Below are positions 3,365 to 59,900 of a stretch of DNA of 64,000 bases, piece by piece. The stretch is taken from NCBI GenBank assembly GCA_029706075.1, contig JAINUG010000218.1, positions 749,854-813,853 of the forward strand. The letters run 5' to 3'. The stretch comes from Aldrovandia affinis (taxonomy: Eukaryota > Chordata > Actinopteri > Notacanthiformes > Halosauridae). Made by a program: the position numbers and the translations under genes. The notes under the pieces were generated by a model. The model worked only from the letters and a program-made list of their open reading frames with translations. It searched no databases and had not been told where the DNA came from. Numbering within the stretch: the first letter of the stretch is position 1; each line of letters opens with the position of its first letter.

Positions 3365-3665
3365 TCATCATCATAATCATTCCTGACAATCATCATCATC
3401 ACCATTCACCAATCATCATTCTGGTTCTGTGTGTCTCAGTAGGTAGAGCATGGCGCTGACTACGCTTAGGCTGTGGCTTCGATTCCCACTGGGGACCACA
3501 TATACAAAAAATGTATGAATTCACTACTGTAAGTCGCTTTGGATAAAAGCGTCTGCTAAATGGCATATAAATTCTTGATCATCACCATTATTCCTGTCCA
3601 GCATTATCATCCTCATCTTCATAATCATCATCATCATAATCATTCCTTATCAACAATTCTATTTC
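3365..3665 (+). repeat. ATC/ATT-rich simple tract split by a SINE
   Basis: Imperfect ATC triplets at 3365-3420 resume at 3578-3665 after the SINE insertion. The tract is interrupted by CC and AATC variants, so it is a decayed microsatellite. Confidence 0.8.
3421..3577 (+). mobile_element. tRNA-derived V-type SINE
   Basis: A tRNA-like head carries an A-box-like stretch (TCTCAGTAGGTAGAG, about 3434-3448) and a B-box-like GGCTTCGATTCCC ending near 3486. It is followed by the conserved V-SINE 3' core GTAAGTCGCTTTGGATAAAA (about 3530-3549) and AGCGTCTGCTAAATGG. It is a close relative of the antisense copy at 54472-54618; both share head, linker and core in the same order. Such RNAs are made by Pol III and copied by LINE machinery. 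The (ATC)n flanks hide any target duplication. Confidence 0.85.
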
Positions 3666-17660: not shown

Positions 17661-18836
17661 TTGAGAGCTAAAAACAGCTCCTAAGTCCAGGAGAAGTTAG
17701 AAGCAGTCAAGAGGACTTCTAAGTCGCTAAAGACCTACTTACAGCGATCCGAAAATCTGCTGCTGCCGGCAATCGTTGTCGCAATCGCGTCAACACTGGA
17801 GATATTGAATGATACAGAGCTCATAAAAAGGTACCGCCTCAATCGCGAGGGTATTAGGTATATATATAATATTATATATATATCATATATAGATACCCGC
17901 TGATTGTTTACGAGATGCAGACATGTAACCAATTGACTAGTCAGTATTCTTGGTTTCATGTTAAATCAGTGACACGTAGCCTACATTTGTATTTTAGAAT
18001 CTTTATTAGAATATCATAGGTGTGCATCGGATCATTTTCGGATCAGCAAAAAAAAAAAATAACGCGGGCCAAAGGCGTGTTTCCACCAAAAATTACCAGG
18101 AACTATTCTCAAGGAATTGAATGAATGATCATTTCAGTTTTTCAATTTAAGTTATTTCACTAAATCTTTATTCGAAAATTTCACAAAATACATTTTTAGA
18201 TTCAATACGCCTTGGGCGATTTAACTAGGGTGGTTTATGCCTGAATTAATTGAATAAAAAATGAAAAGATCGCTAATGTTTCAATTTTATTTAATTCGGT
18301 CGCGTTTCTAAAAACCTGCCTCCCAGAAAGGCATTTAGTATGAAATTTTTTAGGGAATTGTTACTTTAAAACGTAACAGCGGCAGAAAAACTATATTTCT
18401 CTATTATGGTTCAATTTAGCTATTAATCCACAGATCATATGCGTGCCGAACCGTGGGGGTTGATCCATACGGATCACGGATCAACTGCGATCCGTTACAC
18501 CACTAGAATATAACAGTAACAGGTAGTCCTACATACCACTTTACAGTAGCATATAATTTATTTGCTAGGTTGAAATCGCGGGCAGAGACCCATCCCCTAT
18601 ATCAGCCAATCGCTGTGGGCATTCTGAGTAAGCTCGTTCATGAGAAACAACGTCATCCATAGCAACGACGTCAACCCCGCCCTCACTCTTAGCTTGAAAA
18701 TTCTAGGAATTCCTTATGAGTTTGTCTTTGCAGCTTTGTGAATATGTTTTAAGGTGGGACTCCTAACTAAAACGTTTTAGTGAGATTTAGAAGTACTCCT
18801 AGTGGTAAGATAAAATTATTTGTGAATACGGCCCCA
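17660..18836 (-). mobile_element. PIF/Harbinger deletion derivative, inverted relative to the 23-24 kb copy
   Basis: Reading left to right: a truncated transposase-side arm (from about 17660), then the 5' end of the transposase gene in + orientation (17746-17857, corresponding to the N-terminus of the copy at 24363). An AT palindrome-like run follows (17863-17890), then the Myb-side arm reversed, ending in the TIR GTGAATACGGCCCC at about 18821-18834. The Myb-like gene and most of the transposase are missing. A hAT MITE lies inside the Myb-side arm. Harbinger-family elements normally insert at 3-bp TWA targets; no clear pair survives here. Confidence 0.75.
18017..18505 (+). mobile_element. 489-bp non-autonomous hAT MITE nested in Harbinger
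   Basis: The left end TAGGTGTGCATCGGATC pairs with the right end read outward, TAGTGGTGTAACGGATC. Flanking 8-bp duplications are GAATATCA (18009-18016) and GAATATAA (18506-18513), one mismatch, as expected for hAT. The uninterrupted host sequence (GAATATAACAG) is visible in the reversed arm at 23220-23245. No transposase frame is present. A second, right-truncated copy lies at 22484-22940. Confidence 0.85.
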
Positions 18837-21666: not shown

Positions 21667-21766
21667 NNNNNNNNNNNNNNNNNNNNNNNNNNNNNNNNNN
21701 NNNNNNNNNNNNNNNNNNNNNNNNNNNNNNNNNNNNNNNNNNNNNNNNNNNNNNNNNNNNNNNNNN
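21667..21766. other. assembly gap, exactly 100 N
   Basis: A run of exactly 100 N, the conventional size for a gap of unknown length. It lies inside near-identical repeats, so order and copy number around it are uncertain. Confidence 0.99.
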
Positions 21767-22940: not shown

Positions 22941-23390
22941 GTACTTCTAAATCGCACTAAAACGTTTTAGTTAGGAGTCCCACCTTAAAACCTATTCACA
23001 AAGCTGCAAAGACAAACTCATACTAAAGAAGTCTGAGAATTTTCAAGCTAAAAGTGAGGGCGGGGTTGACGTCGTTGCTATGGATGACGTTGTGTCTCAT
23101 GAACGAGCTTACTCAGAATGCCCACAGCGATTGGCTGATATAGGGGATGGGTCTCTGCCCGCGATTTCAACCTAGAAAATAAATTATATGCTACTGTAAA
23201 GGGGTATGTAGGCCTACCTGTTCCTGTTATATTCTAATAAAGATTCTAAAATACAAATGTAGGCTACGTGTCACTGATTTAACATGAAACCAAGAATACT
23301 GACTAGTCAATTCGTTATATGTCTGCATCTCGTAAACAATCAGCGGGTATCTATATAAGCAGCCTTCCAATTATCCAGACTAGAATCACC

Positions 23391-29645: not shown

Positions 29646-29773
29646 CCCAACCCCAATATGTATAGGATCGACAACTATACATTCATCTGCATGCATAAAT
29701 CAATTTAGATTCAGGTTGTTTCTGGAATGTTATAGTATTTTATTTGACAGAACTGATAAATCTGGAATATTAA

Positions 29774-31303
29774 CCCCCTGAGGTCGACGGGATCACCGAC
29801 GATCCCAGCAGCAATAAAAGTATATTACTATTTCTAACTTCGCAATATTTTATCATACACACGCGGCAAAAACATTGACAGAAACCTTAGAATCGCGACT
29901 TTCCGATTTGAGCACTGGCAAATAATATGGGATTTCTTAAATTAGGTTAATTAGACCAAAGTAAACCTTGCCTTTCACTCTCTGTTTCACCTGGAAGTAC
30001 CATCCCCCTTCTATTGACAACTAGGTGCTAGTTTCGGGGAGGTGCGTGGGGAGGGCGTGGGGCCATGTGAAAACAACACGTAAACAACACATAAAATGTC
30101 CCGACAATTTTATTCAAGATGGCAAGATTTTCTGCGCTGGAGTGTTTGAGAGCATTGATGGAAAGCGACGAGGACAACAACTCATCATGTCCCGATACTG
30201 AAGAGGATTCAGATGAAGAGACAGCATTTTGAATTTAGAATTGATCCAGCTGAGGACCTAACTGACAAAGAGTAAGTAACTAGGCTATTTATGTTTACAG
30301 TGACGACGATGTGGAAGACAAAGCACGTACTCCTCCAGCAAAAAAACCACACAGGACTCCTACACAAAGGTATGTGTCTTATGTGCATTATTGTTAGGCT
30401 GTATAACTTGTAATATGTGGCATTCCTCTGCCAGATGTGATGTTTGTATTCGGTAGAGATTTGTGTATGATGTAAATACCACATTGCCTAATGCCTATTC
30501 CCTATGCCTGGCTTCTGTTGGTCGCAAGAAATGCGTACTCTGCAAGATGTCGGAGAAACAACAGTGCACTCCATGGGAGTGCAAGGTTTGTGATGTTTCC
30601 TTGTGTCTACAGTTGACCAGAAACTGTTTTGAGAAGTGGTACCAAAGACTGTAAAAAACAGATGTTTTAATGTTTCACCGTGTTTGAATTTTGTATATAG
30701 TTTGTGTGCTGTTTTCAATAAATCTTCCAAAATGAAAAAAGCTTATTTTTTTCTGTCTTCTGCATGGCTCACTGACTTGCTTACTCTGATGGCTTTTGTC
30801 TTTGTCTGATGGCCTTTGAGAGAGAGATGGCCCATCTGACAGATCTTAGAGGTGTGGACAATGAATCATGAATATTCAGGCATTTAGCATATAGCCCTCC
30901 CACAGCCTGAAATAAATGTGTCCAGTTCTGATAAAAACAGGTTTTTAGCTATTTACATCTCAGATGTGCTAAACTATTTTCACACCCTTACATAACCAAG
31001 ACCTTGATGAACAAACGCACATTGGCAAAACAATTCGTCACTATAGTTTAGTGTGTGCTTTCACAACTTTTGTGACGGCAGAAAAATGTACTCTTTATAA
31101 CTTGTGTGTTTGTAGATCTATTTACAAGCTGCATATGATACTGACCAAACGATTGATGGCATATAAATGTAGCTGTGATTGTCCTCAAATAAAAATATCA
31201 AACACTTTGGAGTAATTGTGTGTTAAGTTGATGAAATTGAGATAAATATCAGACCATGCCAAAATCACAAACCTTCTCTGAGCTAAGCACGGACCTCAGG
31301 GGG
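29774..31303 (+). mobile_element. piggyBac-type transposon, internally deleted, copy 1
   Basis: Flanked by TTAA on both sides (29770-29773, 31304-31307), the piggyBac signature. The 12-bp terminal repeat CCCCCTGAGGTC is perfect at both ends. An imperfect palindrome follows the left end at 29789-29806. The first exons and the last Cys-rich domain of a transposase remain; the catalytic core is gone. The 3' region 30655-31303 is closely matched by the copy at 34418-36182. Confidence 0.9.
30119..30654 (+). pseudogene. piggyBac transposase remnant: N-terminal exons and C-terminal Cys-rich domain
   Basis: piggyBac transposases excise cleanly at TTAA with a DDD catalytic core and bind ends through a C-terminal Cys-rich zinc domain. 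ATG 30119 opens MARFSALECLRALMES followed by an acidic stretch (NNSSCPDTEEDSDEE); an extra T at about 30227-30230 causes a stop at 30230-30232. In the next frame FRIDPAEDLTDKD continues to a GTAAGT donor (30273-30278), a tiny intron-like stretch ending ACAG (to about 30301), and a second exon-like DDDVEDKARTPPAKK.. to a GTATGT donor at about 30370. The final frame to TAA 30654 carries the Cys-rich domain: KKCVLCKMSEKQQC, then WECKVCDVSLCL and NCFEKWY. The whole DDD core normally between these parts is absent. It may still give rise to a small acidic or zinc-domain peptide, but that is speculation. Confidence 0.82.
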
Positions 31304-31307
31304 TTAA

Positions 31308-33164
31308 CATAAACAGTGTGGTTATTATCTCATCCCTTGCAATGTTTCAATTTGTTTTATAGTTCAAATTTTATAGTATTTTAGTGATTATTTCATGAGC
31401 AGATGCTTATTTTAAATTATTTTAAACTACCACTATACTGAATATCACTGGATTTAATATTTCCCTTTAGAGCTCATTCCTGCCTCATACATATACTACA
31501 AAACATGCATATAACAACTAATCATCTGTCATAAATTTAACCCCAAACTCACATGCAACTGTTATTCTGTCATCATGGCATATGATTGCTGTTTGACATC
31601 CTGTCATCATGAGTCACAGGTGGTAGACAGAACACTGCACATGCATCACAATCCACAATGCATTCAGATGGGGTTAGAGAATAGCACTGTGATTCAAAAC
31701 AGGCTGATGTGGCAATCCGAATGAATCAGGATACATTTTAAAGCGTATTAATATTTTAATGTAAAATGTTAATGTAATCAAAGCCTACATATGAAACTAC
31801 CCTTCTGAAACTGTTAAATTTAATAACCCACATACAAAACTGTATACTTAACATCAGATATGCACATACCCATTCCTGTCAAACTCTCAGAAAAAATACT
31901 GTGCTATTAAAAAGTATATTCACTGAGCCACACTATGATTGTATCTGACAAAAGGAGTTACGTACATTACAGTATTATATTGTACCTGAAACTGAATGGT
32001 AAAACCCTATAAATGGAAATTGGAATGGTGAGAGTCAATGATTCATCAACACTACCAGAAAAACTGATGCTTTGTATAATAACCCCAAGCATCCATCTCT
32101 ATATTACCTCATACCTTACTACAGTGCAAAGCACTGTTTAATGTTTCAGCGATGGGTTATTTATTTTTCATTATTTCCCCCACCTATGGCTACAGCTACG
32201 TTTGTGACCACACACTCTGTACGATTAACATATTACTCATAAATGAGGTCACAAAAGAACAGGAAAGAGTGTGCCTGCTGAGGGAGCCCCATAAATATGG
32301 CTAGGTTTTAGAAACCAGGGACACAGAGACATACTGTTCCTTGGGCAAAAATAACGATTACCTCGCTATGTCAGACTGGCCCATGTCAGCCAGCCATTTT
32401 ACGGGTGGGACATATCACCACAAAACTGGTATCAAATTTTCTGTTTCATACATAGTTTCAACTTTCCAAACAGATCTAGAGATGTCAGGGAGATGGCAAC
32501 AATCTAACATTTTAAAAGCAAAACAAAAACATACTTTTTAGTATTAAATATTTTAGTATTTTACTGTTTTTATTTTATTTACTAGTTTTTTTTAATTCCA
32601 TGTTTAAATTGGCTCTTATCTACTGAGGGCAAGTTTAGTTGTATTTACTGCACTGAAACCTATGCACAAAATTATGAACTTCATGGTAATATTTATGAAT
32701 GCACTGATAACCCCATTCCAATGCTACAGCGACCTCTGGCAGTTTGGGCGTGCACAGACTAACAATAGTGTCCTCTGAAGCGCATGCATGTCTGATGACC
32801 ATTGCTTTTTCACCCTGTGATCCGCCGGCTGAGCAAATGTAGCTACTGCACCTGACAGCAGCCAATGTAGGCAGATGCCTCCCTGGCACAGAACATGTCT
32901 CTCTTATCTGATTGCCCTTATCTGATTGTCCTCCAGGAATATCAGGCTAAGGAATGCAGTTTCATTTTACAGATTTACAGTTTCGATGCAAACAGTCTTC
33001 TCATATAGCAATATTTTAGGGAGTATAACTCTGTCTCCTCTTCAATCCCATCTTCAGTCTGTTTCGTACTAAACAATACTCTAGTCATGTTTTCAGACAT
33101 CATGCTTATATTTGGATGTGGACTGACACCAATAGTTGACCTAAAAGTCAGTGTATCTGTTCAC
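31308..33164. other. AT-rich non-coding stretch, no gene seen
   Basis: About 1.85 kb without recognised transposon ends or coding exons. Two frames (32341-32541 plus, 32635-32889 minus) have no motif. Confidence 0.35.
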
Positions 33165-33167
33165 TAA

Positions 33168-33688
33168 GAGCCCTATTCAGAGTTGAGTTAAGCACAAACA
33201 GCGTGGAGATAAAAAAATGACGCACCTTACCTGTATGTTTGTATTCAGACTTCAGAACTTTCTGAAAAAGTTCAGAACTTTTTTTGTGGTATTAAGCACC
33301 CCCTGGTAAATTGTGTATCTAGGGAGGAGTTTTCCCTAAATAGAGATGTTCGCTCTTCTGACTTTGAGGGGAATAAACATCGAACAAGCAGCACGTAGAA
33401 TAGTGTTTATTGACCAAATGCATTATCCAGCATTTCTAAGTCTTAATGCGATACATTTCAGTGTGTGGGCAATCACAATCTTGGCTACTGTGTGATTGCC
33501 TACACAGGTGCTTCTCCTTTTAGACCCTCCTTAATTGAAATTGCCAGTGCAGGCAATAGTGAAACACAGCACAAAGAAAAATTAATTGGAAATATGGGGA
33601 AGTATGACCAATTATTTTGCACACAACCATTGTATTCATGGGAGGAACTTAAGCAGGTGCTTAATTTGGTCAACTTTGAATAGGGCCC
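33168..33688. mobile_element. 521-bp Harbinger-type MITE
   Basis: The left end GAGCCCTATTCAGAGTTGAG pairs with the right end read outward, GGGCCCTATTCAAAGTTGA. TAA flanks both sides (33165-33167, 33689-33691), the 3-bp TWA duplication expected of PIF/Harbinger. GGGCC-TATTCA is also the flavour of the larger Harbinger TIRs in this window. No coding capacity seen. Confidence 0.8.
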
Positions 33689-33819
33689 TAACTGCATAGC
33701 CTCGTTTACTTTTACCGACACCCACTTTTACTGAGTACTGGCCAGTGCTTTGGAAATCACACCACCCTGAGCGGTGGGTTGGATTGGCTCTCCTCATTTG
33801 CTGATGGAACACAGATGTC

Positions 33820-34019
33820 ACATTTACATTTACATTATAGGCATTTAGCAGACGCTCTTATCCAGAGCGACTTACACAGTTTACATTTCTTTATATACAA
33901 TCTGAAGCAATTCAGGTTTAGTACCTTGCTCAAGGGTACAACAGCAGTGCCCCACCCAGGAATTGAACCTGCAACCTCCGAGTTACAAGCCCAGCTCCCT
34001 AACCATTACACTACACTGC
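33820..34019 (-). mobile_element. V-type SINE with perfect target duplication
   Basis: Minus strand: the head GGCAGTGTAGTGTAATGGTT at the right end, B box GGTTCAATTCC (about 33960-33970), body CCTTGAGCAAGGTACTAAAC, and core TAAGTCGCTCTGGATAAGAG then CGTCTGCTAAATG. The tail is AAATGTAAATGT at the left end. The 8-bp CAGATGTC flanks it exactly at 33812-33819 and 34020-34027. A clean, full-length copy. Confidence 0.93.
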
Positions 34020-34417
34020 CAGATGTCGTTCATCACAGTTGATTGACATGTAACCCCGCCCTCCATGCCACCCCCAGCACCAATGGATTTACTTGAATGT
34101 GGCTGAGTGAGCTGTCTGTTTTAAATCAATCAGCCATTTTGTTCCCAGAAGAAGTATTCTGCAGCCTTCAAAACAAATCAACCAAAGTAGTATTTCATCG
34201 CATTTTACTTCTCACATGAACAGCTCTTAAATGAGTGCGCGTTTGTGAATTAGCATAATTAACACCCCAATAATGCTATATAAGGTTAGGCGTCCCGCCC
34301 CATTTTCATAGGAAAGTAATTCATAATAATGGCACCGAACAAAACCAAGAAGAAAAACTTTACGAGCTCGGAGATTGAAGTATCTGAAATAAGTAACCGA
34401 AAGCACATACTATTTAA

Positions 34418-36182
34418 CCCCCTGAGGTCGACGGGAGCGGCGCCGCTCCCAGCAGCAATAAAAGTATATTACTATTTCTAACTTCGCGATATTTTATCAT
34501 ACACACGCGACAAAAACATTGACAGAAACCTTAGAATCGCGACTTTCCGATTTGAGCACTGGCAAATCAAATGGGATTTTTTTAAATTAGGTTAATTAGA
34601 CCAAAAGTAAACCTTGTTTTTACTCTGTTTTTACCTTTTAGTACCGTCCCCTTCTATTGACATGGTAACTAGGTGCGAGTTTCGGGAGGTGTGAGGGGCG
34701 TGAAAAACGGCGTAAACAAACACAAACTGTCCCGACAATTTGAAGCAAGATTTTATACAGACATACAATTTTATTCAAGATGGAAAGATTTTCTGCGCTG
34801 CAGTGTTTGAGAGCATCGATGGAAAGCGGCTCTAAGACAATAACTGACGAAGAGTAAGTAACTATATTTGATCTGCCATGTTATCAAATACTCGTATATA
34901 TATTCAATATATGAATTCGTGTGTTAAATTGCAGCGTAAACAATGTCCCGACATTATATCGGATCTTGTCTGTGTTTACGGTTGCGAGCTGCCAGCAACA
35001 GACGGTGTATGCTGATATTTATTTTATTTACCATATTTTCAAATACTCGTGAAAAGTATTCGAGCTGCTGCGAATAATTAACGGAGGATATTTAACCAGC
35101 TGGCATTCTGTTTGGGCGCTTTGGACATTATCTAGCTTAGCTTGATAATACCTATTGTGATTAATGTTTCTTGCCTCTCGAGAACTTGTTTGTTCGTGTG
35201 CTTGTTGTTGTTTAGATTCCCAGCGTTTAGTTTATACCACGTTTTTGGATACGTGATTTACCTGTTTACTTTGATTTGTTTGTGCCTGTTCGATTTGGTT
35301 TTGTTTTGTTTGTCTTTCCGTGTCTTCGCGAACCACGGTTTTGCTTAGATTTTCCGACAGGCGTTTAACGATAAATATCTTAAACCCAGAAAACGGGCTA
35401 CTTTTGATCATGTGCCTGTGTCCACTGCCAAACACTCTGGATGTTGGCAAATTGGCTTCTGTTGGTTGCAATAAATGTGTACTCTGCAAGATGTCGGGAA
35501 ACAGCGGTTTGTGACGTTCCCTTGTGTCTACAGTTGACCAGAAACTGTTTTGAGAAGTGGCACCAAAGACTGTGAAAGAACAAATTGTCTCACCATGTTT
35601 TAATTTGGAATGTTTTGTATATAGTTTGTTTTCAATGAATCTTCCCAAATGAAAAAAAAACTTTCTGCATGGCTCACTGACTATTGCTTACTCTGATGGC
35701 TTTTCTCTTTGTCTGGCGGCCTTGAGAGAGATGGCCCATCTGACAGATTTTACAGGTGTGGACAAGCCTCAGGTGTGGATCATGAATATTCTTGAAATTA
35801 GCATATAGCCCTCCCACAGCCTGAAATAAATGTGACCAGTTCTGATAAAAACAGGTTTTTAGCTATTTAGATCTCAGATGTGCTAAACTATTTTCACACC
35901 CTTACATAAACAAGACCTTGATGAACAAACGCATATTGGCAAAACAATTCGTCACTATAGTTTAGTGTGTGCTTTCACAACTTTTGTGACGGCAGAAAAA
36001 TTTACTCTTTATAACTTGTGTGTTTGTAGATCTATTTACAAGCTGCATATGATACTGACCACACTATTGATGGCATATAAATGTAGCTGTGATTGTCCTT
36101 CAAATAAAATATCAAACACTTTGGAGTAAGTGTGTGTTAAGTTGATGAAATTGAGATAAATATCAGAACGGACCTCAGAGGG
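34418..36182 (+). mobile_element. piggyBac-type transposon, internally deleted, copy 2
   Basis: TTAA at 34414-34417 and 36183-36186. The left end CCCCCTGAGGTC is perfect; the right end has one mismatch (CCCTCTGAGGTC read outward). Beside the left end is a perfect 18-bp palindrome (34433-34450). Left 400 bp and right 600 bp match copy 1 closely, but the interior 34858-35440 is different sequence, so the two copies are independent deletion derivatives. Confidence 0.9.
34780..35575 (+). pseudogene. piggyBac transposase remnant, both ends damaged
   Basis: ATG 34780 opens MERFSALQCLRASMES, matching the start of copy 1. The acidic stretch found there has been lost by an internal deletion. The frame ends at TAA 34855-34857, within the sequence GAGTAAGTAAC that includes the GTAAGT splice donor shared with copy 1. 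After about 600 bp of unrelated interior, the Cys-rich end appears at 35451-35575 (LASVGCNKCVLCKMSG). About 20 bases coding for the QC-PWEC part are missing, shifting the frame, so the zinc domain would not fold as in the family. The DDD catalytic core is absent. The 3' flank then matches copy 1 to the terminal repeat. Not functional; its ends could still be substrates for an active relative. Confidence 0.8.
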
Positions 36183-36482
36183 TTAAGGCGTCAACAGTGG
36201 AATTTAAGGGACCTGTTAAAACCAAGGAGTGGGAAAAAATGACTTGTGCAGTTAATGTAGTATCATCTGTTGCCCGTAGCATCACAGAAAAAAAATAAAA
36301 TAAAATGGTGTGATATGAAATTGGAGTCAAAGAAACATCTCGCGAAAGCAAGGCGATCCATGACTGCAACAGGGGTCAGGAGGAAGTCTCCGTTACACAC
36401 ACCGACGAGCGAGGTGAACGAGCATGTACGTGAGGTTGCCTTGTCCGGTGTTGCAACGGATATCCCCCTGGACAGCGACTGA

Positions 36483-54471: not shown

Positions 54472-54618
54472 ATATATGCTATTTATCAGATTTTATCCAA
54501 AGCGACTTACAGTAGTGAATGCATACATTTTTCAGTATATGTGGTCCCAGTGGGAATTGAACCCACAACCTAAGCATTGCCAGCGCCATGCTCTACCTAC
54601 TGAGCCACACAGGACCAC
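54472..54618 (-). mobile_element. V-type SINE, same subfamily as 3421 copy
   Basis: Minus strand: CCTGTGTGGCTCAGTAGGTA (A-box region), GGTTGTGGGTTCAATTCCCA (B box GGTTCAATTCC), ACCACATATACTGAAAAATG linker and CTGTAAGTCGCTTTGGATAA core. TATCT flanks it at 54467-54471 and 54619-54623. It lacks the last GCGTCTGCTAAATG part of the core in intact form. Confidence 0.88.
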
Positions 54619-58707: not shown

Positions 58708-58772
58708 GTACATTTACATTTTACATTTTAAGCATTTAGCAGACGCTCTTATCCAGAGCAACTTACAATATG
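58708..58772 (-). mobile_element. V-SINE 3' core, 5' truncated
   Basis: Minus strand TTGTAAGTTGCTCTGGATAA, GAGCGTCTGCTAAATGC and an AAATGTAAAATGTAAATGT-like tail. No tRNA head. Confidence 0.8.
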
Positions 58773-58774
58773 CG

Positions 58775-59900
58775 CATTAATACATGGTAGGAACAATCAT
58801 AGTTCGCGCAAGAGATCAGTGCAGTAATACAGCAATAAACATCGTTGAAGGCAGCTGCATATCATACCTATAACGCTGGAAAGGAAAAGGTTAGTAAATG
58901 TATTTTATTTGATTTTATACAAAATATTGAACAAGTAGGCAGTGGTGATGACAATCAAAAAGGTTGTTGGCGTGACGGGTGACGCTGTCAGCTTGCTTGC
59001 AGCTCTCGTGTTTGGTTTTGGTCTTGGATGCACCCACAGGTACTCTACTTGAAGGAAAGTACCACCAGGGCATAAATATCTGCAGCTGATGATCAGAATG
59101 CAGGACGTGTCTGTTTTCATACAGTGTCAGCCATGCCTGATTGCAGCCCCTCTCTGCGACACCCAGACACAACAGCAAGACCATGATTCACAGGCTCACG
59201 TTTCTTTTTATATCCAAAGGCACACTGTGTGCAATACCTCTGTTCTTTTCAGGAATCCTCAATACAAAATAAAAATGATATCCATCCATTGCTTTCAAGA
59301 GGAACTCAGACATGCCAACATATTGTGTGATAGTTTTTTCTATATAGACGATGCAGAATAGATATAAACAATAGGTTATGTAATGGCTTTTAGTACAATT
59401 TCTCCCAACATTTGAATTACAGTGGCAGTATGAAACAATAACAATAATAAAAACCCACTGAGAGCTGATTTCAGTGTTCTTGTTGGTTTCCTCTATTAAT
59501 CACAATTAAAAGATCATGCTGCTTTCCTATTGTCGCCATCGTTTCCGAGCAAGAAATTTCATATTTTCATTACCCTGATTGCCCTGTGCAATTTGGTCTA
59601 TTGGGTGGATGATAACATTTCTACAATAGCTGTAATGTTTGTCCTATGAGCATATTGTGAAGCTATTTTGCAGTCTAGAAAAGCTCCAAAATTAAATAAA
59701 TAAAAATTGCCTCTGCTTCGTCACAGGCTACAAATGGATTCACTGCCACTTTTAAAATATGAGGAAATTGATTGTCCTGGGGCTTTTTCTCATGCTTTTA
59801 ATATGGGCAAGAAAGTACAAGCTATTTAATAAATGGACATTTTGCCATGTAGTCCTCTTTAAATATTTGAACATTTAGCCACATTTGAGTTTTTTTCTGC
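58775..59900. other. non-coding stretch, no gene seen
   Basis: Nothing recognised; short frames only. Confidence 0.35.

Follow-up and report, generated by a model that had tools for sequence, protein, structure and literature searches.

A subterminal palindrome at the left end of two internally deleted piggyBac-like elements of Aldrovandia affinis as a putative CRD-dimer site

Two internally deleted piggyBac-like copies in the DNA of Aldrovandia affinis carry an 18-bp block close to the left tip, which is very probably the left-end subterminal palindrome ("internal repeat") of their piggyBac-superfamily family and a putative CRD-dimer site. This reading draws on the place of the block, which is that of the palindromes of T. 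ni piggyBac, PGBD3/MER85 and piggyBat, on its symmetry and on weak CRD-like remnants in both copies; the main argument is the place, which appears to agree with the known palindromes to ~1 bp. The kind of docking site is already known, and the change of its letters between the copies, with symmetry mostly retained, is suggestive, though so far unproven.

The two copies lie in the same orientation in the window (the whole stretch of 64,000 nucleotides that was analysed). Both are flanked on either side by a TTAA target-site duplication, as is typical of the piggyBac superfamily, and both end in the 12-bp TIR CCCCCTGAGGTC, in keeping with the short TIRs (~13 bp) expected, with a single mismatch at the right end of copy 2. 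The elements, their ends and the palindromes are the following:

29774 to 31303, plus strand: piggyBac-like copy 1, 1530 bp, internally deleted (flanking TTAA on both sides, perfect 12-bp TIRs)
34418 to 36182, plus strand: piggyBac-like copy 2, 1765 bp, internally deleted (flanking TTAA, TIRs)
29770 to 29773, no strand: TTAA target-site copy, left of copy 1 (sequence)
31304 to 31307, no strand: TTAA target-site copy, right of copy 1 (sequence)
34414 to 34417, no strand: TTAA target-site copy, left of copy 2 (sequence)
36183 to 36186, no strand: TTAA target-site copy, right of copy 2 (sequence)
29774 to 29785, plus strand: left TIR of copy 1, CCCCCTGAGGTC (TIR comparison)
31292 to 31303, minus strand: right TIR of copy 1 (TIR comparison)
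34418 to 34429, plus strand: left TIR of copy 2 (TIR comparison)
36171 to 36182, minus strand: right TIR of copy 2, one mismatch (TIR comparison)
29789 to 29806, no strand: proposed CRD-dimer site of copy 1, a subterminal palindrome at element bp 16-33 with 7/9 pairs (pairing count, shuffles)
34433 to 34450, no strand: proposed CRD-dimer site of copy 2, a subterminal palindrome at element bp 16-33 with 9/9 pairs (pairing count, shuffles)

The copies have in common a left end of 172 bp (TTAA included, 94% identical), 300 bp near the right end (96% identical), an N-terminus-like stretch and a cysteine-rich C-terminal tail; ~35 bp near the right TIR are present in copy 1 and absent from copy 2. 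A Pfam search of 8 chosen open stretches of the two deleted copies returned no match to the catalytic domain DDE_Tnp_1_7 (PF13843), and the copies seem to be piggyBac-superfamily elements whose catalytic core is apparently gone. Copy 2 seemingly interrupts a gene-like stretch (34329-34417 on the left, 36187-36290 on the right): the left flank reads MAPNKTKKKNF... and has no Pfam match, the right flank matches Myb_DNA-bind_5 weakly (E 0.051, below cutoff), which would presumably fit a Myb-like gene of a Harbinger-type transposon. Elsewhere, three UnaL2 LINE 3' elements in the window exceed the Rfam gathering score (3516-3569, 33835-33888 and 58726-58778) and would point to a teleost-like genome. 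The window also contains a tRNA-Ala-like sequence with anticodon ggc on the minus strand (54541-54616) and a run of N at 21667-21766, probably an assembly gap.

The 18-mers, GGGATCACCGACGATCCC at 29789-29806 and GGGAGCGGCGCCGCTCCC at 34433-34450, are found where the initial annotation had placed them. Their location, given there as 15 bp inside the left TIR, is counted from the transposon tip, and the spacer that separates the block from the 12-bp TIR itself is 3 bp (GAC); the centre of the palindrome falls at 24.5 in both copies. The comparison of the letters holds as well: the 18-mers differ at five bases (element bp 20, 22, 23, 26 and 29), with a compensated pair at arm position 5 (pair 5:14, T:A in copy 1 versus G:C in copy 2) and two inner mismatches of copy 1 (pairs 7:12 and 8:11) that are both G:C in copy 2. 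The outer arms, GGGA and TCCC, are identical in both copies, and at arm position 7 the G of copy 2, which is part of a CpG, corresponds to an A in copy 1.

Published subterminal palindromes are described here as they appear in excerpts of the cited reports. The internal repeat of T. ni piggyBac, at bp 17-33 from the tip, is bound by a dimer of the transposase CRD that bends the DNA, as revealed by cryo-EM (PMC7351741), and lies 3 bp inside the TIR (PMC3459987). The short non-autonomous copies of human PGBD3/MER85 have a single 16-bp imperfect palindrome, separated from the left TIR by 3 bp; its replacement lowered PGBD3 binding by 80% in gel shifts, replacement of the TIR by 60%, and a perfect match to the palindrome consensus is found in 291/363 bound copies versus 48/526 unbound ones (PMC3459987). 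In bat (Myotis) piggyBat, cryo-EM revealed two CRDs with a C1-like fold bound to an imperfect palindrome at bp 19-30, in the left end only (PMC11707139). The centres are 25 for T. ni, 24.5 for MER85 (bp 17-32, reckoned here as a 13-bp TIR plus 3 bp), 24.5 for piggyBat (reckoned here from the Fig. 4 legend; alternatively, judged from the third repeat, which spans bp 107-120 and follows a motif at 99-104, the first repeat would lie at bp 19-32 and be centred at 25.5) and 24.5 for the Aldrovandia affinis copies. In both copies, the palindrome is located ~3 bp inside the TIR and centred near bp 25, as expected of a CRD-dimer internal repeat.

Judged by the same excerpts, copies 1 and 2 resemble T. 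ni piggyBac in the spacing of 3 bp and in the near-equal bp span of the palindrome; T. ni differs in the sequence, in its A-tract centre and in having the same repeat at the right end too. Such a two-ended arrangement was not seen in copies 1 and 2: the block sequence does not recur at the right ends, and GGGA/TCCC are absent within 200 bp of either right tip. In this the copies differ from T. ni but agree with piggyBat, and the missing right-end repeat counts against the CRD-dimer reading. Like PGBD3/MER85, the copies are short non-autonomous elements with a palindrome that follows the left TIR after 3 bp; the MER85 sequence, GTTCCAtTAtTGGAAC, is unrelated, and binding was observed for MER85 by gel shift and ChIP, whereas copies 1 and 2 are known from sequence alone. 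The P motifs of piggyBat are likewise imperfect palindromes, centred near bp 24.5 and described for the left end only (PMC11707139, PMC13405395); the left end of piggyBat has three repeats, each 3 bp from a GCGGGA motif, whereas one such block was found in copies 1 and 2. As read from the two ends, the one-sided pattern is that of the piggyBat and MER85 type and not of the T. ni type. A further difference counts against the CRD-dimer reading: the block is GC-rich, whereas the palindromes of T. ni, MER85 and piggyBat have AT-rich centres, T. ni with its A-tract (PMC7351741, PMC3459987, PMC11707139).

The symmetry was compared with chance in 5,000 dinucleotide shuffles of the first 100 bp of each copy. 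For copy 2, an 18-mer with 9 pairs occurred anywhere in 0.0008 of the shuffles and at start bp 15-17 in none; for copy 1, the share of shuffles with at least 7 pairs was 0.109 when any position counted and 0.0026 when the start had to lie at bp 15-17. The palindrome of copy 2 is beyond chance, whereas that of copy 1 is so only given its place. Among the 63,866 N-free 18-mers of the window, two are perfect (9/9), the other one consisting of AT only, and 185 have at least 7/9 pairs. At 289 TTAA[CT][CAT] sites, 16-19 bp stretches with a start at bp 14-20 were checked for symmetry, one unpaired position being the most allowed, a threshold that leaves out copy 1 with its two mismatches. Besides copy 2, four sites passed, of which one lies within copy 2; none of these four has the TIR of copies 1 and 2. 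The 7/9 pairs of copy 1 are equalled elsewhere in its left end, by TATTTCTAACTTCGCAATA at bp 56-74, and at the right end, by TTGTAAATAGATCTACAA, which counts against the CRD-dimer reading. The latter 7/9 18-mer is present in both right ends, at 31110-31127 in copy 1 (bp 177-194 from the right tip) and at 36024-36041 in copy 2 (bp 142-159). As counterparts of the block, TATTTCTAACTTCGCAATA and TTGTAAATAGATCTACAA were rejected, being unlike it in sequence and place.

Other symmetric stretches were also noted. Read from the right tip, TTGTAAATAGATCTACAA is the same in both right ends and possibly a right-end protein site, or a chance match. An imperfect weak palindrome around TCGCGA, identical in both copies (29882-29909 and 34526-34553), is possibly a second, inner protein site. 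Outside the copies, the near-palindromic 18-mers at 18765-18782 and 22955-22972 (AACTAAAACGTTTTAGTG) are mutual reverse complements and perhaps parts of another repeated element.

Remnants of the transposase may be present in three frames:

30119 to 30229, plus strand: possible transposase N-terminus remnant, MARFSALECLRALMESDEDNN... (no Pfam match)
30508 to 30654, plus strand: transposase C-terminal cysteine-rich tail remnant with a stop at its end (weak C1_2 match, E 0.018, 15.8 bits versus a cutoff of 26; cysteines read from the sequence)
35408 to 35572, plus strand: frame with the end of the cysteine-rich tail of copy 2, the tail being broken relative to copy 1 (PF13842 zf-Tnp_2, E 0.006, 17.6 bits versus a cutoff of 24)

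The first of these is assigned to a transposase N-terminus, as a possibility, by resemblance. The tail of copy 1 contains two CxxC pairs and further cysteines and reads CFEKWY where copy 2 has CFEKWH; with a longer piece of it, the C1_2 match falls to E 0.079. All tail matches, including that to zf-Tnp_2, a DDE_Tnp_1-like zinc finger, are below the curated Pfam cutoffs. The tail is likely a CRD remnant, an assignment that follows from these weak matches together with their context. Cysteine patterns given in an excerpt of the literature are CxxC-CxxC-CxxH-CxxC for T. ni and CxxC-CxxC-CH-CxxxH for the PiggyMac type (PMC8086355). The two sub-cutoff matches, C1_2 and zf-Tnp_2, speak for the CRD-dimer reading; the piggyBat CRD has a C1-like topology (PMC11707139). 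Relatives of the tail in the PDB were not found by phmmer, and a CRD was not found among the matches listed when a predicted tail model (mean pLDDT 69) was compared with solved structures; like the sub-cutoff Pfam scores, the phmmer result counts against the CRD-dimer reading, the model comparison at most weakly so. From 30119 to 30654, copy 1 retains N-terminus-like and CRD-like stretches, whereas a catalytic core was not detected. Speculatively, a product that lacks the core might sit on transposon ends and thereby act as a repressor.

In analogy to the relatives, the block could function in the following manner: a CRD dimer of the family's transposase would bind it, binding would bend its DNA, and the block would be needed for transposition, its symmetry presumably being read as two half-sites in duplex DNA and not as a hairpin. 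The proposal of a dimeric binding site, or subterminal signal of the family, is consistent with the palindromes on which CRD dimers are known from T. ni and piggyBat, and with that of PGBD3/MER85. The accompanying idea that the signal is read as structure rather than sequence finds no support in these systems as excerpted: the DNA is bound by protein as a duplex, and binding fell by 60% when bases of the MER85 palindrome were altered (PMC3459987). It is very improbable that the block acts as a fold, i.e., as a cruciform or a single-strand hairpin. The 18-mers do fold alone as DNA, with -3.7 kcal/mol for copy 1 (z -1.5) and -7.2 kcal/mol for copy 2 (z -2.8, 3/200 shuffles as good), copy 1 reaches z -2.2 in its 57-nt context (6/200), and hairpins or cruciforms from such repeats are considered possible in theory in an excerpt on related elements (PMC12324416). 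In the 57-nt context, however, copy 1 favours a fold other than the palindrome hairpin and copy 2 is not unusual (z -1.0, 31/200), and in the counterparts described so far, CRD dimers bind the duplex (PMC7351741, PMC11707139).

In the gap-free aligned stretch, the first 150 bp of both copies, 5/18 positions differ in the block versus 2/132 elsewhere (Fisher p 0.00026; p 0.009 for an excess in any 18-bp stretch under random placement), and the block is for this reason a local hot spot of difference. Changed letters with mostly kept symmetry are suggestive and remain unproven as a pattern. In simulations with copy 2 assumed as ancestor, five random changes yielded at least one compensated pair with a probability of ~0.19-0.25 without CpG bias and of 0.55-0.77 when CpG sites were weighted 5 to 10 times; at least 7/9 pairs were kept in ~3-4% and 16-33% of the simulations, respectively. 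The compensated pair alone is within chance, and symmetry is retained somewhat beyond the random-change expectation without CpG bias. Selection, which the initial annotation had seen implied by the covariation, is only weakly indicated, since two copies cannot show it and a compensated pair arises this often by chance. Ordinary decay of one inherited palindrome, free of constraint, is a serious though not the probable explanation for the weaker symmetry of copy 1 and the five differences: the simulated frequencies of compensated pairs and, with CpG bias, of at least 7 kept pairs speak for it, as does the change from G to A at arm position 7, the expected decay product of the CpG in copy 2. Four of the five differences are transversions, however, which is improbable under CpG-driven decay (P 0.004-0.022, versus 0.18-0.46 without bias), and decay does not foresee the excess of differences over the flanks. 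It is less likely than not that mutation alone, by quasi-palindrome correction or gene conversion, made the difference symmetric with no selection on binding. In quasi-palindrome correction, strand switching lets one arm serve as the template for the other. The clustering of the differences in the block is what a single event would give, and copy 2 is a perfect palindrome, but the same block place and the identical outer arms in both copies are not required of a random event, and two copies cannot distinguish the cases.

As an extension of the CRD-dimer reading, it is conceivable but unlikely that subfamilies of one piggyBac family each possess their own symmetric CRD-dimer site, GGGA[T/G]CG[T/G]CG[A/C]CG[A/C]TCCC, with pairs 5:14 and 8:11 switching together from T:A to G:C and copy 1 later decaying by two transitions; such a switch would record a CRD specificity that moved together with its half-site, so that closely related transposases no longer share ends. 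Given an ancestor of copy 1 with T:A at 5:14 and 8:11, the two mismatches of copy 1 would follow from two transitions (one in CpG context), and the copies would differ by two compensated pairs. A subfamily difference that removes symmetry is described in an excerpt on human elements, where MER75B bases switch off the palindromic order of the MER75 5' inner repeats (PMC12324416).

Searches for further copies covered collections that are uninformative on the source genome: no relative was found in viral contigs with four DNA patterns, in prokaryotic genome contigs with two patterns, or in phage records at the DNA and protein level. Seven viral-contig loci that match one DNA pattern all lack TTAA before the TIR match and were taken as chance; when the cysteine-rich tail was run as a protein pattern against viral contigs, seven matches came up, none of them a relative. 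In the papers searched, CCCCCTGAGG together with piggyBac was not found, nor were paired changes in piggyBac palindromes among the matches listed (titles and abstract openings).

With the CRD-dimer reading of the block, an apparent fish family joins the elements of moth, bat and primate, in which subterminal palindromes of different sequence occupy one common place. This pattern suggests a conserved geometry with drifting bases. If many copies showed paired changes, they would constitute a natural record of a transposase and its docking site changing together.
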